A stretch of 64,000 bases of DNA from Membranipora membranacea (taxonomy: Eukaryota > Bryozoa > Gymnolaemata > Cheilostomatida > Membraniporidae). The notes under the pieces were generated by a model. It was not told the origin of the DNA. It saw only the letters and a program-made list of their open reading frames with translations, and did no database searches. Positions 3,704 to 58,039 of this stretch are shown here, piece after piece; position 1 is the stretch's first letter, and the number at the start of each line of letters is the position of its first letter. The position numbers were made by a program, and so were the translations under genes. The stretch is from contig OU612065.1 in assembly GCA_914767715.1 (NCBI GenBank), forward strand, positions 34,038,001 through 34,102,000, given 5' to 3'.

Positions 3704-5040
3704 ATGCCCATCCCAACTATTCTTCTTATACAGAACATGGTGGTGAGCCGCCGACCTCGCTCTCCCCTGAACTGATATTGCAGATTGACCAACAAAAAGG
3801 TAATTTCAGGATATACACATTGAGGTCACATGATGCCTGTCTTGACAAGCTTTGTTGGTTGCAAGGGAGGGCTAGCTAGTGTCGAATCATGCTTTCGCAT
3901 TCCCAAAAAGGGAGGACAACTCGTGACTCAAAAAGCTTTTCTCCTGATTCCAGACCCCTACCAACAAAGGTTGTCAAGACCGGCTAAATTCATCCTCAGT
4001 CAAATCACTATGCAGGATCCTTTAAATTTATTAAAATAAAATTACATTGAAAATATACAGAAGTTTTTACACCCAAAGAACTCATTTTTTCTTGAGCGAT
4101 GTGACAAGGCTCAGATATTTAATAATATCGTAATGTGTTTCAACTGTAATATTTACTAACTCTAACCTTGCTTTGGAGCCTCATACTTTGTAGTTATCTT
4201 GTCTTGGTTCATGCATTATCTAGTACCACGGCGTGCCTTATAGCGAGTTATGCTAATTTACCCATCTCGTCAGTTCGCGGGTTTTTCTCGTTCCTATTAT
4301 TCTAAATAACTGAAGAGACAAGTCGTCTTTTCACAATTTTCACCCTCCCGCCCTAAATTACTACCTTATGTTACTGTATTTCTCAGTGTGTGAAAGGTGA
4401 CTTGAGTGCATGTGTGGTTGGTGCTAAATTTTCCGCCGAATTTTCTCCTTTAAAGTTCTTGCCCTGCCCATGCTCTTCTCCAGCAACTTACTGTACTTAC
4501 TTAAATGTTGTATTTCTAACTTATTGAGGGTTAACCAGGAAATGGCGTATTAGTCGCCCCCCTCCTATAGGGGAACCCCCAGCTATCTTGTTAATCATTG
4601 GGGTAAGAAAAAATGATATCTAAAATACACATCAAACTGGCTAAAACATTGTTTTGATTTCCTGAACATCACCTTCTGTTGGAAGGATGTAAAACCATAT
4701 TGTTTGCTGCCTGTGTCATAATGGGCCTTTGATTTGTTCATTTCCATGTATTGATAGTGAGTGTAACTGTAGCCTGCTTAATTTGCTACTAAAATCACCA
4801 ATCGGCTGCATATATTTTAGTGTATCGAGTTTGGTACAGAGACAACACTGAGCCAGAGATCGATGAGTTTCCTGGTCATATAAACTACAGAGATGTCACA
4901 CTGTCAAAATTACTAACAGATACACAAAATATGACTGTCACACATATATCTGTCAAAGGAGATATACCACCACTAGATCAGATAGCTCCTAAACTAAAAC
5001 ATCTCATGTTACAGGGAATGAGCACAAATCAGATAAAGAA
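3704..5040 (+). CDS. N-terminal exons of the ROCO-caspase gene
   Basis: Exon 3704-3799 follows a TTCAG acceptor and encodes about 31 residues rich in Pro, Ser and Glu. It ends in phase 1 before GTAATT. Exon 4821-5040 follows TTTTAG, opens with two bases that complete that codon, and runs for 72 codons without a stop (motifs VWYRDNTEPEIDEFPGHI and KLKHLMLQGM) to a GTGAGT donor at 5041. It leaves two bases, which the first base of the LRR exon at 5783 completes. I do not recognise a domain in the first exon. The second could be an LRR cap region. An upstream first exon must exist because no in-frame start is seen. Confidence 0.55.
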
Positions 5041-8000
5041 GTGAGTGCGATTTATACAATGATAATATACATATACTTCTATTGTCAATCAACATTCATT
5101 TTCTCAAATGTTTTTCATGCAGTGCCAGAACAAATAACTTCAAATAAGAAAAAGCGGAGAGACAAAGATAAAAATACACTAGTGATGAAATTAACAAGAT
5201 TTAAAGTGTTTGATAGATGTTAATAAGAGTAAAATGAAAATTTGTACTTGGTTATAGCAATCAATGTTATATGATATTGTATGATGTAATATGTTATATA
5301 TGTCATATGATGTTATGGCCATATATAATACCTCTGTATACTACCTGAACTGGGCATACCATCACTACATAATAAGCCATGGTTTTAGTGTCATTTCATC
5401 CACCATTATTCTAGTTACATATTACCCTACTGACCTTATGATTTCAAGTGGTTTAATAATTCGCGGTTAGCGATGACAGAAACGGAATACTTAGGGTGTT
5501 CGTGTATATTCTACCATGACACCACAAAAAGATGTGTGCATCAGTGGTATGACTTTAGCTTGGCATGCAGAGGGTCCCAGGTTCTACTCCCGGTTGGGGA
5601 AGGGATTTTTGTAGTTGAGTTAAAAGCTTGAAATTTTCTCATCTTGGACAAACTTACCAGAAATTAGCGGGCCTAAAATCCGTGAATAATTAGACTAGTG
5701 AAAAATGTGCGAGTTGTGCCCTCCGTGAATTAGGAGCCCGCGAATTATTTTTTGGTAAAGACTATTTTATATTATATTACAGCATGTGTACAATGGTTAA
5801 CCTCACAGAGCTGAATGTATGTGGTAATGAGGACCTGCAGATATTACCAGAGTGGATCTGTAAGTTGGAGAACTTGACAAAGTTGGATGTGTCATACTGC
5901 GGTCTGGAGGAACTACCAGAGAGGTAAATAGCGCTGATCAATTAGCATGAATATTTGTTTGCGATGATTTATGTGCACTAAAATGCCAAGCATTGGACAG
6001 CTAATGACCTTTGAGACAGTTCTCAAAGTTTTGAACAAGATAAAATGCAATATAAAGGTAACGTAAATAGTTGTGAAGTCATGACAATTTCAGATGATGT
6101 GAGGTGAATTTCTGGTAACAAAATGAAACTATGAAGATTTACTGATCTTATATATTACAGCATGTGTACAATGGTTAACCTCACGCAGCTGAATGTCAGT
6201 GGTAACAGGAGCCTGAGGAGATTACCAGACGGGATCTTTATGATGAAGAGCTTGACAAAGTTAGATGTGTCACACTGTAGTCTACAGGAACTGCCAGAGA
6301 GGTAAATCAGACGTGTTTATCCATGCCCATTTCTCTCTGTTTTTGCTGTTATTTTCGCCTTGTCAGTTAGATGTGCCAATTTATTTAATATAATATCAAA
6401 TTGAGGTTGATTTGTAAAATCCAAATGCAAGCTCTATAAAATTGATCCTCAGCAGGCTAACCATAAATACTATATCCTCTAGAATTTTTGGTATTCTGCA
6501 TGATGATAACAATAATAAAGTTTTTGCCAAACTTGATAGCTGGTAGTTTTGGAGTTGTCGGCACCTAGTTCTTAAGAAAGGCGGAGCATTCTTATTTGTA
6601 TGCATTTAGCATCAATATTTGTTTGCGAGGATTTATGTGCACTAAAATGCCAAGCATTGGACAGCTAATGACCTTTGAGACAGTTCTCAAAGTTTTGAAC
6701 AAGATAAAATGTAATATGAAGGTAACGTAAATAGTTGTGAAGTCATGACAATTTCAGATGATGTGAGGTGAATTTCTGGTAACAAAATGAACATATGAAG
6801 ATTTACTGATCTTATATATTACAGCATGTGTACAATGGTTAACCTCACGGAGCTGAATGTGAGTGGTAACACGAGCCTGAAGAGATTACCAGACTGGATC
6901 TGTAAGATGAAGAGCTTGACAAAGTTAGATGTGTCACACTGTAGTCTACAGGAACTGCCAGAGAGGTAAATCAGACGTGTTGATCCATGCCCATTTCTCT
7001 CTGTTTTTGCTGTTATTTTCGCCTTGTCAGTTAGATGTGCCAATTTATTTAATATAATATCAAATTGAGGTTGATTTGTAAAATCCAAATGCAAGCTCTA
7101 TAAAATTGATCCTCAGCAGGCTAACCATAAATACTATATCCTCTAGGGTTTTGGTATTCTGCATGATGATAACAATAATAAAGTTTTTGCCAAACTTGAT
7201 AGCTGGTAGTTTTGGAGTTGTCGGCACCTAGTTCTTAAGAAAGGCGGAGCATTCTTATTTGTATGCATTTAGCATCAATATTTGTTTGCGAGGATTTATG
7301 TGCACTAAAATGCCAAGCATTGGACAGCTAATGACCTTTGAGACAGTTCTAAAAGTTTTGAACAAGATAAAATGTAATATGAAGGTAACGTAAATAGTTG
7401 TGAAGTCATGACAATTTCAGATGATGTGAGGTGAATTTCTGGTAACAAAATGAAACTATGAAGATTTACTGATCTTATATATTACAGCATGTGTACAATG
7501 GTTAACCTCACAGAGCTGAATGTATGTGGTAATGAGGACCTGCAGATATTACCAGAGTGGATCTGTAAGTTGGAGAACTTGACAAAGTTAGATGTGTCAT
7601 ACTGCGGTCTGGAGGAACTACCAGAGAGGTAAATAGCGCTGATCAATTAGCATGAATATTTGTTTGCGATGATTTATGTGCACTAAAATGCCAAGCATTG
7701 GACAGCTAATGACCTTTGAGACAGTTCTCAAAGTTTTGAACAAGATAAAATGTAATATGAAGGTAACGTACATAGTTGTGAAGTCATGACAATTTCAGAT
7801 GATGTGAGGTGAATTTCTGGTAACAAAATGAAACTATGAAGATTTACTGATCTTATATATTACAGCGTGTGTACAATGGTTAACCTCACGGAGCTGAATG
7901 TGAGCAGTAACAGGAGCCTGAAGAGATTACCAGACTGGATCTGTAAGATGAAGAGCTTGACAAAGTTAGATGTGTCATACTGCGGTCTGGAGGAACTACC

Positions 8001-11000
8001 AGAGAGGTAAATAGCGCTGATCAATTAGCATGAATATTTGTTTGCGATGATTTATGTGCACTATAATGCCAAGCATTGGACAGCTAATGACCTTTGAGAC
8101 AGTTCTCAAAGTTTTGAACAAGATAAAATGCAATATGAAGGTAACGTACATAGTTGTGAAGTCATGACAATTTCAGATGATGTGAGGTGAATTTCTGGTA
8201 ACAAAATGAAACTATGAAGATTTACTGATCTTATATATTACAGCATGTGTACAATGGTTAACCTCACGGAGCTGAATGTATGTGGTAATGAGGACCTGAA
8301 GAGATTACCAGACGGGATCTGTAAGATGAAGAGCTTGACAAAGTTAGATGTGTCACACTGTAGTCTACAGGAACTGCCAGAGAGGTAAATCAGACGTGTT
8401 GATCCATGCCCATTTCTCTCTGTTTTTGCTGTTATTTTCGCCTTGACAGTTAGATGTGCCAATTTATTTAATATAATATCAAATTGAGGTTGATTTGTAA
8501 AATCCAAATGCAAGCTCTATAAAATTGATCCTCAGCAGGCTAACCATAAATACTATATCCTCTAGGGTTATGGTATTCTGCATGATAAAAACAATAATAA
8601 AGTTTTTGCCAAACTTGATAGCTGGTACTTTCCGAGTTGTCGGCACCTAGTTCCTAAGAAAGGAGGAGCATTCTTATTTGTAGGCATATAGCATGAATAT
8701 TTGTTTGCGATGATTTATGTGCACTAAAATGCCAAGCATTGGACAGCTTATGACCTTTGAGACAGTTCTCAAAGTTTTGACCAAGATAAAATGTAATATG
8801 AAGGTAACTTATATAGTGGTGAAGTCATGACAATTTCAGATGATGTGAGGTGAATTTCTGGTACCAAAATGAAACTATGAAGATTTACTGATCTTATATA
8901 TTACAGCATGTGTACAATGGTTAACCTCACGGAGCTGAATGTGAGAGGTAACAGGAGCCTGAAGAGATTACCAGACTGGATCTGTAAGTTGGAGAACTTG
9001 ACAAAGTTAGATGTGTCAGAGTGCGAACTAGAGGAACTGCCAGAGAGGTAAATAGCGCTGATCAATTAGCATGAATATTTGTTTGCGATGATTTATGTGC
9101 ACTAAAATGCCAAGCATTGGACAGCTAATGACCTCTGTGACAGTTCTCAAAGTTTTGAACAAGATAAAATGCAATATAAAGGTAACGTAAATAGTTGTGA
9201 AGTCATGACAATTTCAGATGATGTGAGGTGAATTTCTGGTACCAAAATGAAACTATGAAGATTTACTGATCTTATATATTACAGCATGTGTACAATGGTT
9301 AACCTCACGGAGCTGAATGTGAGAGGTAACAGGAGCCTGAAGAGATTACCAGACTGGATCTGTAAGTTGGAGAACTTGACAAAGTTAGATGTGTCAGAGT
9401 GCGAACTAGAGGAACTGCCAGAGAGGTAAATAGCGCTGATCAATTAGCATGAATATTTGTTTGCGATGATTTATGTGCACTAAAATGCCAAGCATTGGAC
9501 AGCTAATGACCTCTGAGACAGTTCTCAAAGTTTTGAACAAGATAAAATGCAATATAAAGGTAACGTAAATAGTTGTGAAGTCATGACAATTTCAGATGAT
9601 GTGAGGTGAATTTTTAATTATATTATGAAGATTGACTGACGTTATATATTACAGCATGTGTACAATGGTTAACCTCACGGAGCTGAATGTGAGCAGTAAC
9701 AGGAGCCTGAAGAGATTACCAGACTGGATCTGTAAGATGAAGAGCTTGGCAAAGTTAGATGTGTCATACTGCGGTCTGGAGGAACTACCAGAGAGGTAAA
9801 TAGCGCTGATCAATTAGCATGAATATTTGTTTGCGATGATTTATGTGCACTAAAATGCCAAGCATTGGACAGCTAATGACCTTTGAGACAGTTCTCAAAG
9901 TTTTGAACAAGATAAAATGCAATATAAAGGTAACGTAAATAGTTGTGAAGTCATGACAATTTCAGATGATGTGAGGTGAATTTCTGGTTACATAATGAAC
10001 CTACGAAGATTTACTGATCTTATATATTACAGCATGTGTACAATGGTTAACCTCACGGAGCTGAATGTATGTGGTAATGAGGACCTGAAGAGATTACCAG
10101 ACGGGATCTGTAAGATGAAGAGCTTGACAAAGTTAGATGTGTCACACTATAGTCTACAGGAACTGCCAGAGAGGTAAATCAGACGTGTTGATCCATGCCC
10201 ATTTCTCTCTGTTTTTGCTGTTGTTTTCGCCTTGTCAGTTAGATGTGCCAATTTATTTAATATAATATCAAATTGAGGTTGATTTGTAAAATCCAAATGC
10301 AAGCTCTATAAAATTGATCCTCAGCAGGCTAACCATAAATACTATATCCTCTAGGGTTATGGTATTCTGCATGATAATAATAATAATAAAGTTTTTGGCC
10401 AAACTTGATAGCTGGTAGTTTTGGAGTTGTCGGCACCTAGTTCTTAAGAAAGGCGGAGCATTCTTATTTGTATGGATATAGCATGAATATTTGTTTGCGA
10501 TGATTTATGTGCACTAAAATGCCAAGCATTGGACAGCTAATGACCTTTGAGACAGTTCTCAAAGTTTTGAACAAGATAAAATGTAATATGAAGGTAACGT
10601 AAATAGTTGTGAAGTCATGACAATTTCAGATGATGTGAGGTGAATTTCTGGTTACATAATGAACCTACGAAGATTTACTGATCTTATATATTACAGCATG
10701 TGTACAATGGTTAACCTCACGGAGCTGAATGTATGTGGTAATGAGGACCTGAAGAGATTACCAGACGGGATCTGTAAGATGAAGAGCTTGACAAAGTTAG
10801 ATGTGTCACACTGTAGTCTACAGGAACTGCCAGAGAGGTAAATCAGACGTGTTGATCCATGCCCATTTCTCTCTGTTTTTGCTGTCGTTTTCGCCTTGTC
10901 AGTTAGATGAGCCAATTTATTTAATATAATATCAAATTGAGGTTGATTTGAAAAATCCAAATGCAAGCTCTATAAAATTGATCCTCAGCAGGCTAACCAT

Positions 11001-14000
11001 AAATACTATATCCTCTAGGGTTATGGTATTCTGCATGATAATAATAATAATAAAGTTTTTGCCAAACTTATAGCTGGTATTTTGGAGTTGTCGGCACCTA
11101 GTTCTTAAGAAAGGCGGAGCATTCTTATTTGTATGCATTTAGCATCAATATTTGTTTGCGATGATTTATGTGCACTAAAATGCCAAGCATTGGACAGCTA
11201 ATGACCTTTGAGACAGTTCTCAAAGTTTTGAACAAGATAAAATGCAATATAAAGGTAACGTAAATAGTTGTGAAGTCATGACAATTTCAGATGATGTGAG
11301 GTGAATTTCTGGTTACATAATGAACCTATGAAGATTTACTGATCTTATATATTACAGCATGTGTACAATGGTTAACCTCACGGAGCTGAATGTCAGTGGT
11401 AACAGGAGCCTGAGGAGATTACCAGACTGGATCTGTAAGATGAAGAGCTTGACAAAGTTAGATGTGTCACACTGTAGTCTACAGGAACTGCCAGTGAGGT
11501 AAATCAGACGTGTTGATCCATGCCCATTTCTCTCTGTTTTTGCTGTTATTTTCGCCTTGTCAGTTAGATGTGCCAATTCATTAAATATTATATCAAATTA
11601 AGGTTGATTTGTAAAATCCAAATGCAAGCTCCATAAGAATGATCCTCAGCAGGTTGACCCTAAATACTATAGCCTCTAGGGTAATGGTATTCTGCATGAT
11701 GATGCCACCTCCTTGACGGCTGGTAGTTTTGGAGTTGTCAGCACTAAGTTCTTAAGAAAGGCAGAGCATTCTTATTTGTATGCATTTAGGGTAAGTTAAT
11801 CTGCATGATATGTGAAAATCTTTGATGAAATTTCTTATCCACAGCAGAGATTGGTGGTGGCCACGATTTCATTGCTCAACCAGTTTTCAAATTGGATTGT
11901 GGCTTTTGCCATTTTAGGGCCACTCTCATGATATATACAAAATTACCCTGTTTTTGTATTTTGTAATGTAGCCTAAGATCACTCAGTCTCCCAGCAGGTA
12001 CATCTTCCCTCTAAAAACAACTAAGTATGATAAACTTTGAGATAACCTTAAAGTTTCATCAAATATCAGGAGTCGGCACAAAGCTCCCTCTGTTTTCACT
12101 AAAACTTATTTAAGGTTTTGAACGAGTAGGTCCAAAATCAGGACTGGAGTAAAGTTATAGATTCAAACAATAGTCAAAACTCCATGGAAAACTTCATAGC
12201 TACACTTCAAGCTATCAAAAAAGCACATGAATCAGATTTTAAACAGCCTTGGATGACAACCGAATTGTACTCACTCGCATAGGAACATACCCGATTTCAT
12301 CGTAAGGTGAAAAAGATCCCTATAACCTAGTACTCAAGAAAAATTATCAGAAATTACAAATTATGTTTTAAATTAAGTACGCTTAAAGAGATTATTCTGA
12401 CCACAAATTCGAGTCATGTAAGAACAACAAAAAATGAAAATATATCAGAAAAATCATCACAAGAGCGAGACAAAAGATAGTAATTTAATGATAAACAAGG
12501 ATGGTTCTGAGATCACTGATCAGTTAGATACTGCTGGAAAGTTTAACCAGTTTTTTGTGAGTATTGGGTCGTCACTAGCTAATGATTTACCAGAAACTTC
12601 ATGTGATTATGAGGGCTCGGAAAATTTGATGAAATTTGTTTTTAGAGATTAAATCCGTAATTAGCAAGCGGGAGACATAGGAAGCCAAAGGGTGTGATTT
12701 AATTAGCACATGTACAATAAAAGAAAACTACCTGAGGTGCTCATACTCAAAACCTTTCATGCCTTTTAAGCTAGTTCAGGCTTGATCAACAGATTAACTG
12801 GTTCAGACTGACACTATCAGGGAAATATCAGCAAGATTTACTGACAATTTTAGTTAGCTGCAAACGATATTCCGCTAATAATTAAAACTTGCAGATACTA
12901 TAAATGGCAAAGAGATTTGCCCATATAAATTGTAAAACTAATAATTCATACATTACTATCAATCTATTTATAAGCGGTCATATACTCTCCAAATATTACC
13001 AGACACCAGACTCCAGGGGATGGTTTCAATAAGAGACTCAAAACATCTCTTATAGCTTCAAAATTCAGCAATAAATAGATAGACAGACATAATGTTTCCC
13101 ATCATTCAGTAAGTGTTTGTATTGCTGTTTGCTCGGTTTTTTTATATCAGCTAACTTTAAAAATTAGAAATTAGAGAAGAAATTTGAGAATATCAAATTT
13201 TATTTTACATCCAAAATATATAATCCCCTTTATTAGAACTTACCTGTCTCAGAGTTGTGGGCTGGGCATGTTACAGAAACCAGGTTATCTTTTTGTTAAG
13301 CCAATGCAGAATCACAACCCAAGGCCTGCAGGTCAGATTCACTTTCTCCCATCTCTATCCAGGTTAATAGATCACCCAATAGTGATTCCGTACATGTGCT
13401 CCATTTTGGCTCCAAACATCTCATAAAAGTTTGTTTACATTGATAAGGAAGAATTTGACGTCAGGAGTGGGACTCTCATAAACAATGCCCTATACTATCA
13501 AACAATAATTACTGATAAATAAATTTACTAATTTTTCTCAGTAAATAGTAATTATTTTTTGAAAAACATTATAGCTGCACATTCCTCAGCTATATTTTAC
13601 TCTGCGGATGGATTTTTGAAAGCTTATTTTCTATATTTAAAAGAAAGTAAAATATGAAATACTGTAGGAATACAAAACATTTGACTACTCATTCTTTTCC
13701 CGAGTTCAGTCTTTAGTTATATTACAATGGCTCGGCTCGATGTGATTACCATGGTGTCAAAGTTATTAGGATGTAAATTTGAGCATAGCAAATTGGTAAA
13801 AGTAACTTGCATTTTTTGTCCCTAATATTACCCCCCACACAAGAGAACCGCTGCATGTGTAGTAACAAGTCTCTATAATGATGCTGGACCTGAACCGCAG
13901 GCCACCTTCAAATCTGAGGTGCTCATACTCTAAACCTTTGACACGGGGTATAGGCTTAAACTTGTTTTTTTAAATGTTTAACAAAGTTAGCCATCAAGAA

Positions 14001-17000
14001 AAAACTAAAAAAGGGAAAAAAATCAATCAAGATGGCGAAAAAAATAATCAGAACATCAACATTTGAATAATTTATAATTGAGTATTGAACATAAATTAAA
14101 TGGTATATTGTTAAAAGTAGATGCTATCATATTAACTAAGAAGTTATTTGAAGTTAAGTGTAGCTTGAACATGTCTCTCATATTAAAAATGCGCGAAAAA
14201 TTAGAATTTTCTAACATAAATGGTGGACATGTCTTGTTTATCAATTGATGTCCAGTTATGCTAATAAAATATATGTTGAGCACTGGTAGATGTAGAAGGT
14301 GTAACGACCCTGATAATTCGTTAGTTGGTACCAGGTGATTAGGAATGATTTGTATATTACATATCAACCTGAATGCTTTTTTCTGGAGTAAAAATAAGTC
14401 GTCTCGTATATAGTAACTTTGGATACTACTTATGATGTTGCAAAAAATTAAATGATGGTAAAGTAAAAGAGATGTTTTGTTGTCAAAAAAGGCCTACAAA
14501 GTTTTAATTGCCTTTGCTACCTTTTTACTGACACAGGAAACATGGTCATGCCATGTTAGCCTGTCATTCATGATGAAACCTAACAGTTTTCGTTCAGGCT
14601 TTATCAACAGACTAACTGGTTCAGACTGACATTATTAGGGGAATATCAACTGATTCTCTGACTATGTCCATAATAAATACTGTAAAAAAATACATTTACC
14701 TAATCCTATCATAACACTATTATGTGTTCTCTCTTATAGTCTAGGATCACTCACCAGCCTAGAGGAGCTGAGGTTAATTGGTAATGAATCACTGACCGAG
14801 TTACCAGATGAGATCGGGGGATTGAAGAGTCTACGGACATTAAATGTATCAGAGTGTGGCCTCACCAGTCTGCCAAGCAGGTAAATATGATATATAGATA
14901 TATATATATAGAGGGGAAACTGTGATTGTGTCAGCTAACTTGGCCAAAGATATGTCCACAGAGTAAGGATACAGAGGTGAAACTTTAATGATAGTCATAG
15001 TGCCTGCGGTTTTTGATTCACTGTGGGAAAATCATCAATCTGAATATTTGCCAGCTTTACTAAATATATTAGTTATTACCACACAGAATGCCCAAAACAG
15101 CCAATTTAAGGGGCTTTTCAAGGTGTTTTTCGGCATTCTGTGTGGTATAATTCGAGGCAGTATAAAAACATAGTGCCATATTCTGTTGGCATTTCCTGTT
15201 TCTACTATGCTTAATCAAAGCGGCTTCGTATGTGAGAATTTTAAAATAGATTTGTCTGGCCTGAGTGCTGGACCTTTTGACAGCATGTTTGACGTTATTG
15301 ATAAATGGCTTTGTGGGTTAAAATTGCAAGTGTTGTCTCTGTCCGAGGACTGAGAAATATCAGTGCCTTAAGGGCACGGCCGCCGTATTCGGCGCCATGT
15401 TGCTCTCAGTTTGCAGGCAGGTCGGAGCACACCTGGGTCGTCATGTGTCATGAGCCCAGTAGTCAGTAGACCGCAGCGGGGTTCGAAGCCAGGACCTCCA
15501 ATGCTTGCGCTGCTGAGGGCAGGCGCTCTAACCAACTGAGCTACCTCCTACTCCTTGTCTAGTAGTAACAGTAAAGTAAAACTGATAAAGTAGAAAAGAA
15601 ACTGTAGTCTGGAAGCTGTCACGTAAAATATTGAGAGATGGCGGCATCTCAGCTACCACGTTCCATCCTATTACCTAAGTTTAGCCAGTTGTATTCAGCA
15701 ATCAGTCACCAGCCTGCATATTGCTATATTACTGTATTTTTCTGTATAATATATTTTGTGTGTGTCAGGATGTAAAGCAAAGCAGTTAATTGAATGCATA
15801 TGAGAAGTTTGGAACAGCTGTTGGATATCACATACTGCTATAAACATTATTTACATCAAACCATTATATCATTTTTTAATAAATAATGCTGAGTGCGAAG
15901 TTACCTCGCGTACCATTCTAACTAATAGTTATAAAATATTAAAGGACCAAAGCAATATATAGTCTAGCTAGTGCTGCAGTAGCCTGTCTTGACAAGCTTT
16001 GTTCGGTGGGGGGTGGGGGAAAATGCAAGAGTTGACGTTGTTCCCCACCCCAACCTAACAAAGCTTGTCAAGACAGGCTAGTCCTGCAGTAGTTATGCAA
16101 CAGTTTTACACTGAAAGATTCATAGCACTTCTGGGTAACAATCATGTAAAGTGGTAGAAATCGTCATCCTGCTGACCTAATGAATATATGCCATGTACTG
16201 TACAAGTAAAATAAACTAGCACTGTAGAGCTTCCTATTTTCCTTCCAAACTGGAACCACTCACACCAGTGGATAAAAAAACTCTTATGGTGAGGGTTGCC
16301 ATAACAAACTCCATATAAATCCCTCTATTTGCTAGAATATACACCAACACCAGTTAACTGCAGTTCTCTAATTGTATACTACTGTGTAATTGTTAGCACT
16401 CTGTGTGTATGGACAATTGAATCCACCTGAGCAATCAACTTCCCTATGTGTCTTGCAAAGGTTGTGTCTAAGATTTTGTTTTGAGCCGTGAAAAAGTGGT
16501 TGGCATACTTTGAAAATATAACGACTGTCTACTATTCGATATAAAGTAGGTGAAATATTATAAGGATTCGTATGTAATCCAATACATAACACACAAAAAA
16601 TTTTTCAACTGGTTTCCTCTGCCTAAACTCATCCAGAACATTTCAACATAAAAAGGAGGGGATAACATTTATCACTTTCTATTAGAATCAATATTAACTT
16701 GGTCCACTGCAGCAATTCAAATAGCAGTCCCGCTAATAACAAAGAAGCCAAGAGCTTACATACCTCTCCCTTGTACTGGAGCATAAAAATAATTATCCCG
16801 ACTAATCACACAATAGAATCTACAATAGATTCAATATAGCTTCGATTATCTTTATTATATGTCAATTATTTAAAAACTCCACTATCTAAAGTAAATGTAT
16901 AAATAGTTGCAATTTTATACTAGACATATCAATCTATTTGTAAGTCCGCTGACACAATGAGTTTTGTAGCCACTTATATAGTGAAAAAAAACCTTTAATA

Positions 17001-20000
17001 TTCTCACTGAATCTTGTGTTGTTCAATCATCGTTCCAATTTTTTATTAGCTGTATAATTGAACTTCACTCTAATTATCAGAACCTAGTCACTAAGTTAAC
17101 CTGGTCCTGGCATTAGCTGTTTGATGTTATAAGTTCCTCTAAAGTATGTCTCCAATTATTTGAGTCACTGAAGTACTGGATAGAATAAATTAATCGTGCT
17201 CAACTAGCTCTTCTTGGTTAAATTTATTGAATTTTGAATTGATCCGTTTCTTCAATATTCCATTTTCGGAATCTTGAATAGTAGCATAAAATTCATAACC
17301 TTCAAACTAAAGATGACCCTACAATTTGCTCTTTTCCTTAAAAGCACAGCGATGAAAGAATGTGAATTCCCATTAATCTGTTTAAAGCAGAAGTTAAAAA
17401 ATAGCATACTATGCACTTTCAGGAGAGCTGCAAAACGTGGATACTGTCTTTGATTTATCATAGAGAAAAAAAACATCCGCTATCGAAGAATTTCAGATGA
17501 GAAAACTTTTATCACATTACAGAGAATAACAGATATTTTGCTCCATTATAGACCTATGGTAGCACTAGCAAGACAGAAATTGAACTTTTTCTACTTCATG
17601 CGAATTTTACCATAGAACATGGAATCATTGTCGAATTTCACAAAAAGTTCTTTCATTTATAACAAAATGTATCTGATAAAAGGTAAAAAGATTTGATCTA
17701 AATAATTTTCTGTGCTTTGGTATAATGTTCTATGGATCCTTTTCTTCATAGAAATAATGCATAGTGTCATAAGGTTATTTTGAATACAGACAGTTAAAAC
17801 TCATTTCTTCTTTTCAAAGGATGTCAGGCTTGGAAAACTTGGAGAACTTGAATATCGATCATAATAGAGCGCTCCTCTCAATCCCAGCTGGTGTATGTCG
17901 ACTCGATAAACTAAAGTCAATAGACTGTGTAGGCTGTGAATCTCTGACAAGTCCTCCATATGCTGTCTGCAGTCAGGGGCTGCCAGCAATGAGAAAATAC
18001 TTTGCTGATCTGGAGGAAAATGTTGAACAAAACATGAAGTTCATTCCAATAACTGTTATTGGTCAAACTAAGGCTGGTAAAACCAGCCTTGTTAGGTCGA
18101 TGAAGGAAAATAAACGGAAATTGACCACTCGATGTGACAATAGCAAACTAGATGAGGCCACAAAAGTGATCAAGGTTTGCGAGGTAGATGTTGATGATAA
18201 ATCTAAACTAGTGTTTCATGACTTTGGTGGGCAAGCAGTATATCAGTTTGCCTACCAATTGTCACATAGATCACAATATGTTCCCATGCTTGTCATAGAC
18301 ATTGCTGAATATGACCGACTTGTAGCTGAACACGGAGAAGAGAATGCCTGTGAGACAGTCTGTTTTACATGGCTCTCCCACCTTTATTTGTCCTGCCCAA
18401 AAGCAGGCCAGCCATTTGTGGTGCTCACCCACTGTGATCTCATCGATAATGAAACCTGCAAAGCAAGAGTGAGTCAGTTGATAGAAGTGACTGAACGTCT
18501 ACGCCTTAGGTTAATAGAGGAGGAGAAGGCAATGAGACCAATAAACAGTCCAATCTTCATAATGAAGAGTTACTATGATACAACTCAGCCTCTTCTCTCA
18601 AAACACAGCCCACTTCTCATCTATAAAGACTCTGGAACACAGGTAATCCTCGATCTAAAAACTTTCCTTGTGTCTGTTGGATTGCCTCAACTCACAGAGA
18701 TTCCAGGTAGCTGGTATGTTCTGATGAATTTGTGTGCAAACAGCACACAGCCATATCTAACACTGGATGAGCTGGACAAGCTCTTCTCTAATGACAAAGA
18801 TCGCTTCATTCTTCAGTACCTTCATGAAATCGGGCGAGTGATGTGGTACAGAAATCGAGTCAAACTAGCAAACATCGTGTTTCATCGTATTGAGCTGCTC
18901 ACACACCTAGTTGAGTTGCTCTATGATCACTGCAGAGAGGAAGCGTGGAATGAGCGTAGTTTTCTGGCATTCCAGCATGATAACATGGGAATCAACCAAC
19001 GGCAATACAATCATATGGTCCAAATATACCTAAATACTGGAGTGATAAGGGACATTTTGCTGGTCAACCTCATCAAAAAAGAGTCCGAATTCAAATCCCA
19101 GCCTGAGCTTGCAATCGAAGTACTGCAGGTCTTCCATCTGGTTTGTGGCCCAATCAAGAATGGCAGTGAAAGTCATTATATCGCCCCATACTTCGGTCAG
19201 AGAGAAATCACAATCGAGGAATCTGGACTGTATATTCTTTTGAAAGTTGACTTGTGTTTTAATGGGCTGGCTATTCCTAGCTACGTATACCATCTTCTCG
19301 CTGCAAATTATGTGGATCTCCATATAACGCCGTCCAATTGTATTGAGGCTGGCTCCAATGGTGTTTATGTGAGGGAAAACAATGGCACAATCAAGTACCT
19401 GCTTCATAGCCATGCTGAGAGAACCTTTTCACTCCTGGTACTGACTCCAACAAAACATGTTGATAAATCCTGGAACAGCCTGTTGTACACCTTGCAAAAT
19501 TTGAGATCCCAGCTGGAACAAGAATGGAAGGGAGCTCACTATGAGATAGTATTCTACTGTTCGCACTGCCTGCTCACTAAGAAGGAGAACCCAACCACTC
19601 AAGTCAATCCTGCATGGCTCAACAATCAACATCAACCTTATACTGGCGATGAAACTTGTGACTGTATTCAGCAAACTTCAGCCAAAAGCCGGACTACTAT
19701 TCCGTATCCACTGTTCTATCCATGTGAGTACAGTTTCACCAACTTATGTATGATTGAAATGGCAATGAAAGTTCTGGTCTGCTCTCTCTGCCTTCCTCTA
19801 TAGATACCTTAATTCAAATTGTATTTCTGATGCTTGCTATATTATGACATACTACATGCTACTATATGCTTGATAGGTAGCACCATCACAGAAAGAGGAG
19901 TTCAGACTTTAGATGAGTACATGTCAGAATTCGAAGTGGCTTCTCATGAATCACAAATAGAGGATATTGTGAAGGAAGTAAATTCTGAGAAAGTTCTTAT

Positions 20001-22800
20001 TTACGCTTCAGATTTATATCCAGTTACGGCTGACCCAATGAGTAGTACACTGAAACATAAGGTAGGAAGATGTCGTTGATTTTCACCTTTTATATGTAAT
20101 ATTTTCAAGATTAACCCCACTGTTTTCACTCATAAGCTGCATACAATAAGATGGTAGTAAATTTACTGGATTTAGTGTGCCTACACACGCATTAGTCAGA
20201 GTCTTATCTTCTTGCAGAAGGTGTACAAAATGTCTGAGACTCGCGGAAGAGCGCTGATTATATCGAACACCTGCAATAATACAAGGAAAGGTTCAGAGCA
20301 TGACTATCGCAATATTAAAGGAATGCTTGAGAAGTTTGGATATATAACTGTAGGAGGTCACAAAAATTACACTGCAGAGGTAATGGCAATGTTTTTGCTC
20401 CGCCATTGTTTAAGCGCTCAAACGGTGACGGTATGCTGGTAGAGGCATTCCATTATCAAGAGAAAGTCGTTGATAATGAAATGCCTCTACCAGCATCCCG
20501 CCAACGTTTGAGCGCTTAAAATATCTCCGCCACAATGAAATAAACGCATTGTCACTAGAGGAAAAAAATTAATATTTGATCTAAAATTATAATAGTTAGA
20601 GGTGACTGTAACTCAGTTTGTAAGGTAGTATAGATATTTCATATGAGAGAGCCAGTGATCAATTCCCAGCAAATGCAGATGTATAAGAAGAAGCGACCAA
20701 CCAAAGCAGCAGCATCTTGATGCTATTTCTTCTTCAAAATCTTTTTTTTTGCTGGAAATTAGTATCAACTGTTCAGGATAAGCTGCTAAATCTACTTTAA
20801 TTCTCAAACTCAAAATCCGATCAAAATTAATCAAGTTATCAAAGAAAAACCTGGATTTTTGACAGTAAAGCAATTATCGCATCATTGCTTCTACAACTTA
20901 CGATGACGTTACGTCGCCCCACAATTAAGTGCCTCACTTCAGCTGTATATGGTGTCCTGTCTAGGTATGTTATTAAGTCTATGGTGAGATCCTATTTTTT
21001 GGCTTCAGGCTATATACGTACTCGAATCACTTATTTGTTGTTTGCATAGATGATCGTTACGGCTATCCATTCAGAGACACAGCTAGTAGACTGGGAGACA
21101 GGAGAATCAGTACACAAACATCTCAACTCATTTGTGTTGGTCATCACAAGTCATGGTCATGAAGGGTCTGTGTCTGGTTCCAATGGTAAACATCTCGTAA
21201 TCACAGAGCTTATGGATCTGCTTTCATCTGGGAATTTCCCCGCCATGAGAGGGAAGCCAAAGCTTGTCATCATACAGGCTTGTGCTGGTAGTAAGTTTAT
21301 AAACTTGATCAATTATGGACAGTCAAATATTGTTCTAAGGGAGTAACTTACTAATAGTTCAACGATTATTTTTTAATTTCCATGTCCTTGTCATTTACGT
21401 CTGCATTCTCAGGCAGCGATTTACCGATTGTATGACATACACCCAAATTTTCTACTAAGTATTTGCTCTTATACTCATAAGACAAATTAGTTCTCAGTGA
21501 AAGTCAAGATTGTCTCTCTACTTGTAGGTAGGAAAGAAACACTTCCAGGAGACTTGCCCCCTTCTCAAGCACCACCCAATCAGAATCAGCTAGAAGTAGA
21601 TCAGCCTCAACACAGCAATGGTGCCACAAATGAATCCCCTTCTACAGATCCTCATGATAACCCTATATCAGACTTCATCATTATGCAGTCCAGCTTTGAT
21701 TGTAAGTTGTGAGAGACAATATTCCCTACTTTCTAATTGTGATCGTAGATGTGTTGGTATTGAAATGAACATAATTGTACTTTATATCACTGACAACCAG
21801 TTTGAAGGTTGTGATGGTTTGTTGATGATTGAGTTATTTTAAATTATGAACAGTAGGACACCCAACTCAATCTGACGGGCACAGCTGAGCTGAGGCATAT
21901 CCATCTTCTTTGTTTGAGTGATGTCATCGATCAGTTATTTTAACAGGATATCCCAGCCTTTGGCATGCACAACTCATTTGAACACTTACAGAGTATGATA
22001 ACTAGCCACTTGGTCATACTGGGCAATAGTAGGAAATGCAAAAACAATTTTTTGTGTTCTTTTGCAGCATTCAAATCACATCGAAGTCCTAAAGTTGGCT
22101 CGCTGTTCATCCGCTGCCTGGTATCTACATTCTATAGATATGCTCACAGAGATCATCTCGAAGAACTGGCAGCAATTGTAAGTGATAGATCTTACTGCAG
22201 TTTTAGTTTATGTATGATGCTTGTAAACAGATTTTACACAATCAATCGAGTTTTTTGCAGTACAGTTATTAATTGTCTCAACAAATTGTTGGTTAATGCT
22301 TGAGAGTTTAGTAAGACTTGATGTAAGCATGTGTATTTTTACAGCATAATCTCAAGCTGAATCAATCAAGCACAAATACAACACACGTTTTTTTAGGGTG
22401 GGGGGTAAATGGACTGAATAATACATAGCATGTTAGTCACAGCTAAGTAAATGATTCCACCCGCACCTTTGTGACGGCCATTGGCTTATTTTACAGGTCA
22501 GAGAGACTGTAGTAAAGGCTGGAGCACAGAGAACAGAATATCTGCAAAGAATCGGAGGGCAGCGGTATCCCTCTATGCCTCAGAGTAGATGTACATTTCC
22601 AGGTAATAAGTTCTATCTGCAGCCTGGAATCAATATGAGAACAGAGGACCACCCAGAATCACTCAGAAATCCTGTGTTACGCAAACCTACAGCTACAAGA
22701 ATTCACACAGAACCTGGTATGTATGATGTTATGTATGATATAGAAGAAATGAAAATCATAAAAACTTTTTAGTCGTTTCAATGCCGTTGCGCCACTTACG

Positions 22801-22865
<65 letters not shown>

Positions 22866-23464
22866 TACAGTTTCCTGTCTAGGTTGAGGAAGTTTTTATT
22901 TTTACCTGATTCTGACACTGCCTCAGTTTTTTCTCCTACACACCCGCTGATATGTCTGTAACTTGTGAATTAACCAAAATATAAGGTACATATGTATTTT
23001 TTGAGTAATGAAAAAGCATTGGGCAATAATACATATCATGCAATATTTATTAGTGCTAGAGATGCGTTAGACAAAGAGTGGCCCAATGGTTAAGGGTGCG
23101 AACTTGCAAACTTTGAAGACCGAGTTTGATTTTCAGCCTGGCAAATGATAATGTTGAAAATAAGATGCAAATAGCATGTTATGCTTTCTACCTGATGCTG
23201 CCACAAATTATTTTCTTGCCCACCCACTGATATGTTGTCATGAGGGAACAACTTGAAAATTCACCAAAAAAAACATGAGTGAAATATGATTGGCCTATGG
23301 TATGGAGAAGACATTGTGATATCTTACCATAACCTACAATATTAATTGGATTTTTCTCTTCTGCAGACCTGATACATACATATAGAACCGGAGAGACAGG
23401 GCCGATGAAGACTTATTATCAGTGGTCAGTAAAGAGAAACTCAGTAAATAGGAACTCACCATGA
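3704..23464 (+). CDS. LRR-Roc-COR GTPase fused to a caspase domain (ROCO-caspase), about 1,747 aa
   Basis: Proposed exons: 3704-3799, 4821-5040, twelve LRR exons (5783-11498), 14740-14880, 17820-19723, 19877-20061, 20218-20379, 21050-21290, 21528-21701, 22068-22177, 22497-22716, 23367-23464. All junctions have GT/AG and matching phases, and the total is 5,243 nt from the first exon listed to a TGA at 23462-23464. Domain order: unknown N-terminal region, about 28 leucine-rich repeats, a Roc GTPase, COR, a short linker, caspase p20, a Pro/Gln-rich linker, caspase p10, a short tail. ROCO proteins are large regulatory GTPases in which COR mediates dimerisation. Caspases are cysteine proteases cutting after Asp. 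The initiator exon is not found and lies upstream of 3704. The join between the COR exon and the caspase exons rests on phase and position. Intron retention would end the protein at 19803. Two adjacent genes remain possible but less likely. Confidence 0.72.
3834..3986. mobile_element. MITE with TGCCTGTCTTGACAAG terminal inverted repeats
   Basis: The left end begins TGCCTGTCTTGACAAGC and the right end (3961-3986) is its imperfect inverted complement, giving an element of about 153 bp. The same terminal repeat bounds another element at 15980-16080. A fragment of the same motif lies near 62961-62978, inside the larger element at 62693-63565. It sits in an intron just after the 3704-3799 exon. 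The 69-codon ORF over it is not regarded as a gene. Confidence 0.6.
5455..5749. mobile_element. MITE with AATAATTCGCGG ends carrying a tRNA-like core
   Basis: AATAATTCGCGG at 5455-5466 is matched by its exact inverted complement at 5738-5749. Inside, about 5535-5600 resembles a decayed tRNA promoter on the + strand: a box A-like CATCAGTGGTA and a box B-like GGTTCTACTCC. It lies in the intron before the first LRR exon. Confidence 0.5.
5783..11498 (+). repeat. Array of twelve 141-nt leucine-rich-repeat exons
   Basis: Exons: 5783-5923, 6161-6301, 6825-6965, 7488-7628, 7866-8006, 8244-8384, 8907-9047, 9285-9425, 9655-9795, 10033-10173, 10697-10837, 11358-11498. Each is exactly 141 nt and symmetric phase 1, starts after a TATTACAG acceptor and ends CCAGAGAG (CCAGTGAG in the last) before GTAAAT. 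Each therefore adds 47 residues, two 23-24 residue LRRs of the form NLTELNVxGNxxLKRLPDxI and SLTKLDVSxCxLxELPE. All twelve are open. Repeat periods fall into two classes, about 378 bp and about 663 bp (one is 370). The introns are as conserved as the exons, which indicates recent duplication and homogenisation. Confidence 0.9.
11840..14739. other. Large intron of the ROCO gene with transposon debris
   Basis: The roughly 3.2-kb intron 11499-14739 begins with a diverged remnant of the long LRR intron (to about 11800). It then contains a non-LTR retrotransposon fragment (about 12140-12660) and a pair of related segments (12735-12850, and the pieces 13919-13955 plus 14594-14665). Those two pieces could be a single repeat split by about 640 bp of inserted sequence. 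No exon is supported between 11498 and 14740. Confidence 0.5.
12140..12660 (+). mobile_element. Non-LTR retrotransposon (LINE) fragment, dead
   Basis: Frame shifts and stops interrupt a protein resembling the segment between endonuclease and reverse transcriptase of jockey/CR1-like LINEs. A first piece includes the motif KQPWMTTELYSL. The piece at 12434-12652 contains FNQFFVSIGSSLANDLP, characteristic of that linker. The polymerase motifs are not present here. It is intronic and same-strand relative to the ROCO gene. Confidence 0.6.
14740..14880 (+). CDS. Thirteenth LRR exon of the ROCO-caspase gene (diverged)
   Basis: Same length (141 nt) and phase as the array exons, after TCTTATAG and before GTAAATATG. 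It encodes two LRRs with motifs SLEELRLIGNESLTELPDEI and SLRTLNVSECGLTSLPS. It is clearly diverged from the twelve upstream exons and has unrelated flanking introns, so it looks like an older cassette outside the homogenising block. Confidence 0.85.
14985..15175. repeat. Interspersed repeat with internal inverted arms
   Basis: Arms at 15076-15093 and 15130-15147 (ACCACACAGAATGCC type) are inverted complements. The left part (14985-15032) is matched in inverse orientation at about 50390-50440, so this is a dispersed family. The 61-codon ORF over it is explained by the repeat and is not called a gene. Confidence 0.45.
15375..15560 (-). mobile_element. tRNA-derived SINE
   Basis: On the - strand there is a box A-like TAGCTCAGTTGGTTAGAGC (15525-15543) and a box B-like TTCGAACCC (15480-15488), followed by a non-tRNA body. 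The body (GCAGGCAGGTCGGAGCACACC and neighbours) recurs at about 60598 and, more diverged, at about 59655. T-stem pairing is broken, so it is not a working tRNA gene. Confidence 0.65.
15980..16080. mobile_element. MITE, 101 bp, with 24-bp terminal inverted repeats
   Basis: TAGCCTGTCTTGACAAGC begins the element, and its inverted complement closes it at 16057-16080. The inner sequence is a G-rich/C-rich near palindrome. Similar CTGCAG-containing flanks occur on each side. Same terminal family as 3834-3986. It lies in the intron upstream of the Roc-COR exon. Confidence 0.75.
17820..19723 (+). CDS. Roc-COR exon of the ROCO-caspase gene
   Basis: One 1,904-nt exon, 634 full codons. Numbering from the Met at 17821, residues 1-60 are the last LRRs and about 70-210 the Roc GTPase: P-loop GQTKAGKTS (81-89, Lys87), switch II DFGGQ (134-138), and THCD (203-206) in place of NKxD as the base-recognition motif. 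Residues of about 285-560 match COR, with GSWYVL and RVMWYR as landmarks. A Cys-rich segment near the end (CSHCLL, then CDC) could bind metal. Roc binds and hydrolyses GTP; COR dimerises. The donor is CCAT|GTGAGT. If it is not used, the frame continues only 26 codons to a TAG at 19801-19803. Confidence 0.93.
19877..20379 (+). CDS. Linker exon and first caspase p20 exon
   Basis: Exon 19877-20061 completes the split codon from the COR exon and encodes 61 residues ending in SSTLKHK, an acidic linker with no recognised domain. Exon 20218-20379 continues in phase 0 with KVYKMSETRGRALIISN, then GSEHDYRNIKGMLEKFGY and NYTAE. This is the start of a caspase p20 subunit: beta-1, the substrate-pocket Arg in RGRALI, the helix and beta-2. 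The donor is GAG|GTAATG. Confidence 0.82.
20398..20537. mobile_element. Palindromic MITE inside a caspase intron
   Basis: Arms of roughly 55-65 bp (about 20404-20459 and 20470-20537) are imperfect inverted complements sharing TTAAGCGCTCAAACG and ATGCTGGTAGAGGCATT. The whole would fold into a long hairpin. It begins about 20 bp after the donor of the first p20 exon. Confidence 0.75.
20590..20690 (+). mobile_element. tRNA-derived SINE remnant
   Basis: The + strand shows a box A-like TAACTCAGTTTGTAAGG and a box B-like GTGATCAATTCC at tRNA-like spacing. No cloverleaf can be closed, so this is a degenerate SINE head, not a tRNA gene. It is intronic. Confidence 0.4.
21050..21290 (+). CDS. Caspase p20 exon with catalytic His and Cys
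   Basis: The exon starts in phase 0 after TTGCATAG. The catalytic histidine lies in SHGHEG (codon 21152-21154) and the catalytic cysteine in QACAG (codon 21281-21283), separated by the expected beta strand (KLVIIQ). Both residues of the dyad are therefore present. Most animal caspases have QACRG or QACQG; Ala follows Cys here. The donor GTA|GTAAGT leaves phase 1. Confidence 0.93.
21528..21701 (+). CDS. Caspase inter-subunit linker exon
   Basis: This 174-nt exon completes the Ser codon after QACAG and encodes 57 residues rich in Pro, Gln, Asn and Asp, ending SSFD. That is the composition and position expected of the p20/p10 linker, which caspases cleave on activation. Several Asp residues (TDPHDNPISDF) are candidate processing sites. 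Phase is 1 on both sides. Confidence 0.75.
22068..22716 (+). CDS. Caspase p10 exons
   Basis: Exon 22068-22177 encodes SFKSHRSPKVGSLFIRCL, the p10 strand in which S1/S3 pocket residues lie. The usual GSWF is GSLF here, with Leu for the conserved Trp. It continues HRDHLEELAA. Exon 22497-22716 begins VRETVVKAGAQRTEYLQRI and contains FPGNKFYLQPG, matching the closing strand of the caspase fold, then about 30 residues of tail. Phases agree (0, then 1). Confidence 0.88.
22803..22862. repeat. (CTG)n microsatellite, about 20 copies
   Basis: Uninterrupted CTG/GCT triplets for 60 bp in the intron after the last p10 exon. It is on the sense strand of the gene, so the intron RNA would carry a CUG run. 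Confidence 0.97.
23060..23160 (+). mobile_element. tRNA-derived SINE remnant
   Basis: Box A-like TGGCCCAATGGTTAAGG and box B-like GAGTTTGATTTTC at tRNA spacing on the + strand. The stems are not closed. It lies within the last intron of the ROCO-caspase gene. Confidence 0.4.
23367..23464 (+). CDS. Probable last exon of the ROCO-caspase gene
   Basis: After CTGCAG, the two first bases complete the Asp codon left open at 22716. It encodes 32 residues (motif HTYRTGETGPMKTYYQW) to a TGA at 23462-23464. Supported only by phase and an acceptor. A further splice from within this exon to 23490 is possible. No clear AATAAA signal was identified close downstream. Confidence 0.5.
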
Positions 23465-25764: not shown

Positions 25765-28310
25765 AAAAGGTGAAAAGTACCTGGCCTCCAACTATCGCCC
25801 TGTCAGCCTTACTTGTGTCACAAGTCCCAGCCGGCACAACTGTATCTAAACTATGTTGAAAAGATGTTTACCTTAGAGGCTGAACTACGTCTGCCTAATG
25901 TGGCAATCTGTCACGCTATTATATGTTGGAATGGTGCATTTTAGTAGATATTGTTACGATATATAAACTGCCTCTGCTACACATCTAACTAGAGGCTTGT
26001 ATGTATAGTAACCATGCGTTTACTACACAGCAAATTTATACACAATATATCATACCTCAGTATATATTTCATTTTAATTACGATTTATTAGATTTAATAT
26101 CAATTAGCATTGAGGAGGGTGTTTTACTCATAGTGATTCAGTCCACTGTGGATGTTGAGTAGTAGGCCCATTAGACCATTGGACTTCTACTAGTGTAGGG
26201 TAAGTCATTGAGTCATACGCAGTGTAACTCTTGGAACTTATTTTTAATACAATCTGTTTTGAATTTATTCGCAAAGAACATTAAGTGGTGCTTAATGCAG
26301 GTAATCTAAACCCTGGCTATTTATTAACCAATTTCAAAATACTGACATGCATTAATGTTTCAAAGTTATTGAATAATGGTTTATTTTAATAATTATATTG
26401 CACTGTTGTGTTGTCACAAGGGCTTACCAAATGTTAGCAGCTTACCAGGGGAGATAAATGCAAGTAATGTATACAAATTCAACAGCTACGCAGTCATGAA
26501 CGCATCGTTCCCATGCAGTTTAGAGACTAGATTTGATTTTAAGAAAATAGAATACAACAATGCAAAATAGAATTGCACACAGTTTGGAGCCACACAGAGT
26601 GTTAGCAAACAAATTGCAAAGCATTTTTTTCCAATATGATGCCAGTATTCTTGCAAATTACTCTCTAGTAAAGTAGCTGCAGTTACTGCGCAGTTACCAT
26701 ATTGCAAAAAACTGTGTTGCTTTGTATGCACCATTTATGCCTCTACGTGGTCATAAACGCATCATTCCCATGCGGTCTAGAGACTAGATTTGATTTTAAG
26801 AAAATGGAATAAAACAGTGCAAAATAGAATTGCACACAATTTGGAGCCACACAGAGTGTTAGCAAACAAATGGCAAAGCATTTCATCACATATGATGCCA
26901 GTATTCTTGCAAATTACTCTCGAGTAAAGTAGCTGTAGTTACTGCGTATTTACCATATCGGAAAAAAACTGTGTTGCTTTGTATGCACCATTTATGCATC
27001 TACAAGATATTGAATGTTAAACGTGTACCATGCAACACAGAAACAATCCAATTGCGACATTGGAAACATGTTGCCGCATACAATGTGCCCGCTGGGGTAA
27101 GGTAATGGAGCACAAACTAACCAGCCACCTGATGTCACACGCTGAAAACAACCAGATATTCAACTGTAACCAGCACGGATTCAGAAGAAATCATGGGACT
27201 GAGAAACAACTAATAGAGTTAACATCCGACATCACCAACAGCCTAGACAAAGGAGAAGAAATCGAAGCATGTGTGCTGGATTTCAGCAAAGCGTTTGACA
27301 AGGTTAACCACAGTAAGCTGTTATCCAAACTAGCGAAGTGTGGTGTAATCTATCAACTCATATCCTGGATTGATGACTTTCTTTCCCATCGCACTCAAAA
27401 AGTAGTTGTGGAGGGTGAGGAATCTACAGTAGCTCCGGTAACCTCGGGGGGTGCCCCAAGGGTCAGTTGTCTGGCCAGCGATGTTTTTGTTCTACATAAA
27501 CGACCTGCCAGATACAGTTCGATCAAATGTACGACTCTTTGCCGATGATACCATAATATACAACTGTACAGTCAATAATCAACAACTACAAGAAGACCTA
27601 GCAAGCCTCGAATCGTGGGAGAAAGCCTGGGATATGGAGTTCCACCCTCCAAATGCCAGCACATCACATTCTCTCGCAAAAGAAAACCAGACAGACACTG
27701 AGTCTCCATGGTGCTGAAATACCTCGTGCAGAGCGCATTAAGTACCTCGGACTCACCCTGGACCAGAAGATCACATGGTCAACCCACATTGAAAAAACCA
27801 CCACCAAGGCAAACTCTACACTAGGCTTCTTCAGACGAAATGTGCTGACAGACTCCACAGAGGTCAAAGCTACTGCTTACAAACAGTTAGTTCGACCTGT
27901 CATGGAATACTCTACAGCGGCATGGGATTCTATATCCAACACTGCGGCATCCCGTCTTGAAGCAGTCCAGAGAAGAGCAGCCAGAGTCATCTGCGGTATA
28001 CGTAGAACAGATAGACAGACAAGCACCACCAGCCTACTAACAACGCTCAACTTGCAACCTCTCTCAGAGCGACGAAGTGATCGACGTATGAAAATATTCA
28101 GCCAGTACCACTACGCAAACAACACAGTGCTCAGTAGATACACCAAGAGAGCCACTACCACCTCTGCCAGACGGCACCCACTGCAGTATCTAGCGCCACA
28201 TTCGAACAGTGACCACTATCGACGTTCCTTCTTCGTCCGCACTGCCAAAGAGTGGAACTTACTGCCTGCAGATAGTAATTATCTCATTCCCCCAAGTGCC
28301 TAGCATTGCT
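25765..28310 (+). pseudogene. Broken non-LTR retrotransposon reverse transcriptase, split by an insertion
   Basis: A jockey/CR1-like reverse transcriptase in pieces. About 25790-25830 encodes ASNYRPVSLTCV. The continuation KVMEHKLTSHLMS only appears at about 27099. About 1.27 kb therefore lies in between (about 25831-27095). After that come HGFRRNHGTEKQL, LDFSKAFDKVNHSKLL, VPQGSV (after a frame change at the G run near 27445), YINDLPD, the catalytic FADDT (near 27538-27552) and, after a second frame change near 27650, a C-terminal region (27653-28303) with KYLGLTLDQ and WNLLPA, ending at TAG. Two frameshifts and the insertion make it non-functional. Confidence 0.88.
26490..27005. repeat. Tandem duplication of a ~255-bp unit inside the LINE insertion
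   Basis: 26490-26740 and 26749-27005 are diverged direct copies (shared ACTAGATTTGATTTTAAG, GAGCCACACAGAGTGTTAGC and TTGCTTTGTATGCACCATTT). They lie within the roughly 1.27 kb that splits the reverse transcriptase. The short ORFs over the first copy are not coding. Confidence 0.8.
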
Positions 28311-58037: not shown

Positions 58038-58039
58038 TG

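Follow-up and report, generated by a model that had tools for sequence, protein, structure and literature searches.

The stretch of DNA examined here raises the question of whether a ROCO GTPase and a complete caspase, which lie one after the other on the same strand, belong to one animal gene and one polypeptide chain or to two neighbouring genes. The window that we analysed is 64,000 nt long; all coordinates given below are positions within it, and the gene lies on its + strand. The DNA is best read as one gene in which LRR, Roc, COR and caspase follow each other in frame, and on balance it seems likely that we are dealing with a single animal gene whose product, an intracellular protein of the LRR-Roc-COR type, ends in a caspase domain and would work as a ligand-gated protease.

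Gene structure and the leucine-rich repeat exons

When the gene is rebuilt from the DNA, eight exons between 17820 and 23464 (+) form a single open frame of 1030 residues, with zero internal stops and a TGA at 23462-23464; all seven introns between them have GT-AG ends. The encoded order is the end of the LRRs, a Roc GTPase, a COR-like region, a linker and a complete caspase. Exon 1 (17820-19723; phase 2 in, 1 out) carries the last LRR, the LRR-Roc linker, Roc and the COR-like region, while exon 2 (19877-20061; phase 1 in, 0 out) encodes the linker and contains a second in-frame acceptor that would move its start to 20012. The p20 part of the caspase begins in exon 3 (20218-20379; VYKM...RGRALIIS...TRKGS, recognized from motifs, Pfam and alignment) and continues in exon 4 (21050-21287; SHG and QACAG, from motifs, Pfam and PDB alignment), which has a weak donor. 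The inter-subunit linker and the start of p10 are placed by the frame in exon 5 (21528-21701), the p10 segment SHRSPKVGSLF by PDB alignment in exon 6 (22068-22177), the end of p10 (FYLQPG) and the beginning of the tail by frame and Pfam in exon 7 (22497-22716), and the rest of the C-terminal tail, with the TGA stop, by the frame in exon 8 (23367-23464). Candidate poly(A) signals follow on the same strand (ATTAAA at 23642 and 23807, AATAAA at 23832, and a further ATTAAA at 24140); they are weak, because such hexamers are common in the window. The exons, splice ends and motifs of the original prediction are confirmed, each in its place, and the Roc-COR exon does end, as had been proposed, in phase 1 at a good donor (CAT/GTGAGT after 19723, 99.0 percentile of the GT sites in the window).

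Two of the introns have features of their own: an imperfect inverted repeat with 87% identity, resembling a small foldback element, lies between exons 3 and 4 (20409-20520), and the last intron contains 20 TGC/CTG triplets (22802-22861).

The interval 17820-23464 does hold these exons, but the gene is larger, since LRR exons extend upstream to about 5.8 kb; 13 of them had been omitted. Twelve are near-identical tandem copies (5783-11498, +), each exactly 141 nt long, encoding two LRRs and in phase 2 on both sides. The first six are found at 5783-5923, 6161-6301, 6825-6965, 7488-7628, 7866-8006 and 8244-8384, the second six at 8907-9047, 9285-9425, 9655-9795, 10033-10173, 10697-10837 and 11358-11498, and the spacers between them come in two lengths, about 378 and 663 nt. 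A diverged 13th exon (14740-14880, +), also of 141 nt and in phase 2/2, follows. Farther upstream we tentatively recognize two putative exons on the + strand, one at 3704-3799 (phase 1 in, 1 out; splice ends and joined frame checked) and one at 4821-5040 (phase 1 in, 2 out), which joins the LRR exons in phase; no known domain was found in the joined pair (Pfam, E<=1, with a query that had an additional Gly where the two exons meet). Pieces of the gene's 5' flank (1-3281) recur with 93-98% identity some 46 kb downstream (45992-51419). A tblastn search of the 64-kb window with the gene model returned nothing significant outside the gene that would represent a second ROCO copy.

The copies of the array have a mosaic sequence. 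Among the 12, 23 informative two-state sites define seven haplotypes, and all four combinations of states occur at 52 of the 253 site pairs, with at least 2 recombination events. Exons diverge by 9.2%, against 3.3% for the preceding 100 nt of intron, and the exon value is the greater one in 41 of 45 pairs, a comparison made with 10 of the 12 copies (copies 1 and 9 were left out); the following 60 nt of intron, which are of two types, diverge by 34% and thus exceed the exons. This mosaic sequence fits exchange between LRR exons. For the full set of 12 copies we obtain a pN of 0.093 and a pS of 0.127, and because synonymous change is also high we do not claim positive selection.

Shuffling of phase-2 LRR exons has been described for LRR-ROC-COR genes of brown algae (PMC11378527). 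The algal genes share with the present one a tandem array of phase-2 LRR exons, whereas their exons are of 72 bp with one LRR and the genes have no extra domain, as opposed to 141 nt, two LRRs and a caspase here. Of the traits of LRR exon-shuffling ROCO genes, which also include splice variants, our gene shows two, the in-phase array and the four-gamete mosaicism. With such an array, its product would be a candidate for an intracellular receptor that is diversified in an animal, much like the case proposed for brown algae (PMC11378527).

The ROCO core and the caspase domain

The N-terminal LRRs (Pfam LRR_8, 81.3 bits) are joined to Roc via an LRR-Roc linker, as in ROCO proteins, and linker and Roc together align with solved LRR-Roc proteins in the PDB. 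Roc itself passes the Pfam threshold narrowly (PF08477, 27.5-28.8 bits with a cut-off of 27), and both its P-loop (GQTKAGKT) and a DxxG-type motif (DFGGQ) are present. The best PDB matches of the Roc exon (E 6e-6 to 3e-5) are LRR-Roc proteins, in entries titled 'Leucine-rich-repeat protein' and 'Rab family protein', which we take to be the Methanosarcina (archaeal) and Chlorobium Roco proteins. A profile built from prokaryotic ROCOs (73 rows, 71 used) matches residues 42-353 of the exon product with a probability of 97.9 and E 3.7e-13; the match runs from the LRR-Roc linker through Roc into the beginning of COR-A, and no farther. COR-A is correctly placed after Roc and its Pfam score (17.5-19.7 bits) is below the cut-off of 35.3, while no Pfam match to COR-B was found in either the Roc-COR exon product or the gene model. 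Support for the predicted COR domain is therefore partial and confined to its start. An AlphaFold model of the Roc-COR exon, made without an alignment, was too poor for a structure search (pLDDT 36.7); for the Roc exon NCBIfam gave sub-cut-off matches only and PADLOC gave none.

Recognition of the caspase part is much clearer. Peptidase_C14 (PF00656, cut-off 21.4) is matched with 105.2 bits in a 1217-aa model and with 109.0 bits by the caspase part alone, and PDB matches are to caspase-9, -3, -4, -2 and CED-3 (E 3e-13 to 5e-10); NCBIfam and PADLOC returned no match for this part. As originally predicted, the seven exons that follow the Roc-COR exon keep phase to the TGA and encode a full caspase, in which RGRALI, SHG, QAC, the p10 segment and YLQPG were all located. 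The catalytic His (SHG) and Cys (QACAG) align with those of caspases. Caspases owe their preference for Asp to an Arg, a Gln and an Arg, and this S1 pocket is kept here by the R of TRKGS, the Q of QAC and the R of SHRSP. The p20/p10 linker encoded by exon 5 is 47 residues long and contains four Asp.

Two substitutions could be taken as signs of a pseudo-enzyme, a caspase part that is inactive or serves structure only, with the fusion signalling by scaffolding alone: the active-site motif reads QACAG in place of the QACRG of many caspases, and the Trp that precedes the second S1 Arg in caspase-9 is a His. However, caspase-9 itself has QACGG in the same alignments, and none of the key residues is lost (the catalytic His and Cys, the two Arg of the S1 pocket, the Gln of QAC), so that we regard a pseudo-enzyme as very improbable; the domain is expected, from these residues, to be an active, initiator-like enzyme. 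With the initiator caspases (caspase-9, -2 and CED-3) it shares the p20/p10 layout, the His/Cys pair, the Arg/Gln/Arg pocket and an Asp-containing linker. It differs from them in its N-terminal partner, which is a ROCO module where they carry a CARD or DED prodomain; no CARD, DED or Death domain was found in the 1217-aa model (Pfam, E<=0.1).

The junction between COR and caspase

Whether ROCO and caspase are made as one chain depends on how the COR exon is spliced. The splice scores given here come from an approximate textbook matrix, not trained on this species, and the codon scores from a small training set, namely this same gene, with the noncoding null windows also used in training; both are supportive only. 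Three acceptors compete downstream of the COR donor. The acceptor at 19877 (score 1.05, 93.4 percentile) opens in frame into the caspase, and so does the one at 20012 (score 5.0), with a linker 45 residues shorter. The strongest one locally is at 19804 (score 7.0); it opens an alternative exon (19804-19847, +) with a short tail and a stop at 19845 (TGA 19845-19847), and would give a ROCO protein devoid of caspase. Although the proposed junction of 19723 with 19877 holds in frame, this stronger alternative had gone unmentioned. The strongest local acceptor gives a ROCO-only ending, so that both isoforms are possible, and there is a real chance that the caspase-free one is made as well.

A stronger version of this scenario, which overlaps with our best explanation, would have the locus make two products, mostly the caspase-free LRR-Roc-COR protein, acting mainly as a decoy or brake, and the fusion as a minor or induced isoform. 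It draws on the three candidate acceptors and their scores, one leading to the stop and two into the fusion. Those scores, however, derive from the approximate matrix just mentioned, and the acceptors of the 5 LRR exons scored (out of 13) lie between the 86 and 96 percentiles, the same range as 19877 at 93; we find this version rather unlikely. A further point against the fusion is the weak donor of exon 4, at the 81.6 percentile.

Skipping exon 2 leads to an immediate stop, so that this exon, whole or shortened, is required for in-frame entry into the caspase. The codon score of exon 2 is that of coding sequence (0.14 bits per codon; exons 3-8, each scored with a model from whose training it was excluded, give 0.11-0.26), whereas the open frame immediately upstream of its acceptor scores as noncoding (-0.20). 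Of 72 overlapping noncoding windows free of stops, which had also trained the noncoding model, none reaches the total codon score of exon 2. As to its content, we rejected the idea that exon 2 encodes a CARD, DED or Death domain, as neither these nor any other known domain matched it (Pfam, E<=1). Termination of ROCO by read-through of the COR exon to 19803 is likewise disfavoured, because the 26-residue tail that would result has a noncoding codon score (-0.10 per codon).

Caspases are usually encoded by separate genes, and the same region can be read as two adjacent genes on the same strand, an LRR-ROCO gene that ends after COR and a separate caspase gene with a short prodomain, starting from ATG 19921 or ATG 20230. 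The strong acceptor at 19804, with its stop at 19845, would provide the end of the first, and the in-frame ATG at 19921, within exon 2, a start for the second. Yet the 14 codons of exon 2 upstream of ATG 19921 are already coding-like (2.93 bits, a small sample), and phases match through two alternative acceptors, 19877 and 20012. ATG 20230, which would supply the first caspase Met, encodes the M of a conserved YKM motif, and the preceding Tyr-Lys is also matched in the alignment with an ancestral effector caspase; an independent start there is disfavoured because it would cut this conserved motif. No AATAAA or ATTAAA occurs within 19724-20229, which counts as weak support for a single gene because 698 of 1270 windows of the same length also lack both. 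We consider two genes unlikely, and coding of ROCO and caspase as one chain, for which the phases and codon scores argue, distinctly probable.

Relatives of the proposed fusion and a possible mode of action

The original prediction knew of no described family with this exact order, a statement that stands in part. Bacterial proteins with LRR, AP-GTPase (Roc) and COR, followed by a C-terminal caspase, TIR or other effector, have been described (PMC8195603), so that an LRR-Roc-COR-caspase order is already published. There the order is the same, the N-terminal LRRs are variable and caspase is one of at least 24 effector domains; the bacterial proteins are encoded by prokaryotic genes, whereas here we find a spliced animal gene with an animal-type caspase and an LRR exon array (PMC8195603). 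Seven introns lie in 17820-23464 alone, and it is at the DNA level that the bacterial LRR-AP-GTPase-COR-effector order is matched, the single chain being read from DNA only. Animal ROCO fusions had also been overlooked. The sea anemone NG1 gene encodes LRR-Roc-COR-TIR_2 (PMC5094078), and is likewise an animal ROCO with LRRs and an immune effector, TIR there and caspase here. Placozoans, as early animals, also join the ROCO core to death-fold or TIR domains: their ROCO proteins carry CARD, death and TIR domains besides others, with no caspase domain named in the parts of that paper available to us (PMC4104024). The available text of two papers on sponge immunity (PMC8242945 and PMC6208332) contains no mention of ROCO that we could find. 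No animal ROCO-caspase turned up in those parts of the open-licence PMC literature that were searched and read, PMC7159879 among them. Parts and principle are known already, and within the literature searched, some of it in partial text, their combination in an animal gene appears to be new.

We also looked at ROCO proteins in sequence collections. The prokaryotic set comprised 79 loci, kept from the best 80 of 247 matches, and the domain scan covered 73 of these, in which the frame from Roc extends over 350 aa or more, the other six being shorter. Roc and COR-A were present in 73 of 73, COR-B in 72 and TIR_2 in 11, scored for presence and not for position; the 25 families listed for these 73 do not include Peptidase_C14. 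In all 79 loci the frame past the Roc start is of 725 aa or less, with two of them running off the contig end. Plasmids held ROCOs in 11 places, and one protein was scanned for each of 10 (the split gene L084 was left out), among them one protein with CHAT, one with EAD1 and two with EAD11, one EAD11 being below the Pfam cut-off. CHAT belongs with the caspase-like proteases. The protein that carries it, WP_159402710.1 of plasmid pNsp_j from Nostoc sp. ATCC 53789 (L082, 1539-6146), has an LRR-Roc-COR-CHAT order; scanned without its first 300 residues, it shows LRR, Roc, COR-A, COR-B and a C-terminal CHAT, the same effector slot as in our gene. It differs in having CHAT and not a caspase, in residing on a bacterial plasmid, and in COR-A and COR-B scores well above cut-off. 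In favour of the fusion, the slot after the ROCO core holds effectors in other ROCOs too, CHAT in one of the 10 plasmid proteins, caspase by the bacterial report (PMC8195603) and perhaps TIR_2 in the 11 prokaryotic proteins that have it. No animal relatives were found in viral contigs, and no caspase relatives among plasmids or in genome contigs, the latter probed with one short peptide pattern of limited reach.

One plasmid ROCO gene, from Photobacterium (L090, 2769-5507), is flanked by TniB and TniQ genes, with a type I-F Csy2 gene nearby, which suggests a Tn7-like element of the CRISPR-associated kind as its carrier.

An LRR sensor and GTPase switch that directly control an attached protease had been proposed for the present locus. 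This is a fair inference, because the gene is in frame and all mapped catalytic and Asp-specificity residues are kept; that the parts form one polypeptide was put too strongly for a gene read in DNA alone, in which acceptor 19804 competes. Starting from the observed gene anatomy, domains (COR in part), intact active-site residues and exon array, we infer the following mode of action. The LRR horseshoe, built in part from the rapidly changing tandem exons, would bind a ligand, and ligand binding together with GTP exchange on Roc-COR would alter the conformation or oligomeric state of the protein. The attached caspase domains would then be drawn together or released, pair, cut the Asp-containing p20/p10 linker, and trigger a death or immune response with no need for a CARD/DED adaptor. 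Dimerisation of the caspase by GTP is not simply predicted, because GTP is reported to cause monomerisation of a bacterial Roco (PMC11052575); if this behaviour holds here, GTP may instead release the caspase from a dimer in which it is inhibited. Use of acceptor 19804 in place of 19877 or 20012 could yield a caspase-free ROCO as a possible decoy or brake. Taken in its entirety, the picture of a single-chain animal death receptor, with shuffling LRR exons for specificity, Roc-COR as the GTP gate, a built-in caspase in place of an adaptor, and a splice choice between 19804 and 19877/20012 that balances killer against decoy, is one that we can offer only tentatively.

If the fusion is expressed, it would be an animal counterpart of the one-chain bacterial ROCO-effector defence proteins, with a caspase wired directly to its sensor, bypassing CARD/DED adaptors, and it would be informative on how the pathways of apoptosis and of the inflammasome came together. 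Asp-directed proteolysis would moreover offer a simple readout of how GTP state and output are linked in ROCOs, an unsettled matter that is important for LRRK2.

The remainder of the window contains several further features. Reverse transcriptase frames (RVT_1, 42 bits) are found in more than one frame downstream of the gene (27021-28300), repeats of the collagen triple helix (89 bits) at 37904-38413 in another frame of the + strand, and a SNAPC3-like exon (74 bits), which speaks for a eukaryotic source, at 45123-45464. Together with the introns and the animal-type caspase, the SNAPC3 and collagen pieces indicate that the DNA comes from an animal, possibly a sponge. A tandem repeat at 57631-58052, with copies about 20 nt apart, encodes a recurring LGPSF-like motif in one of its frames.
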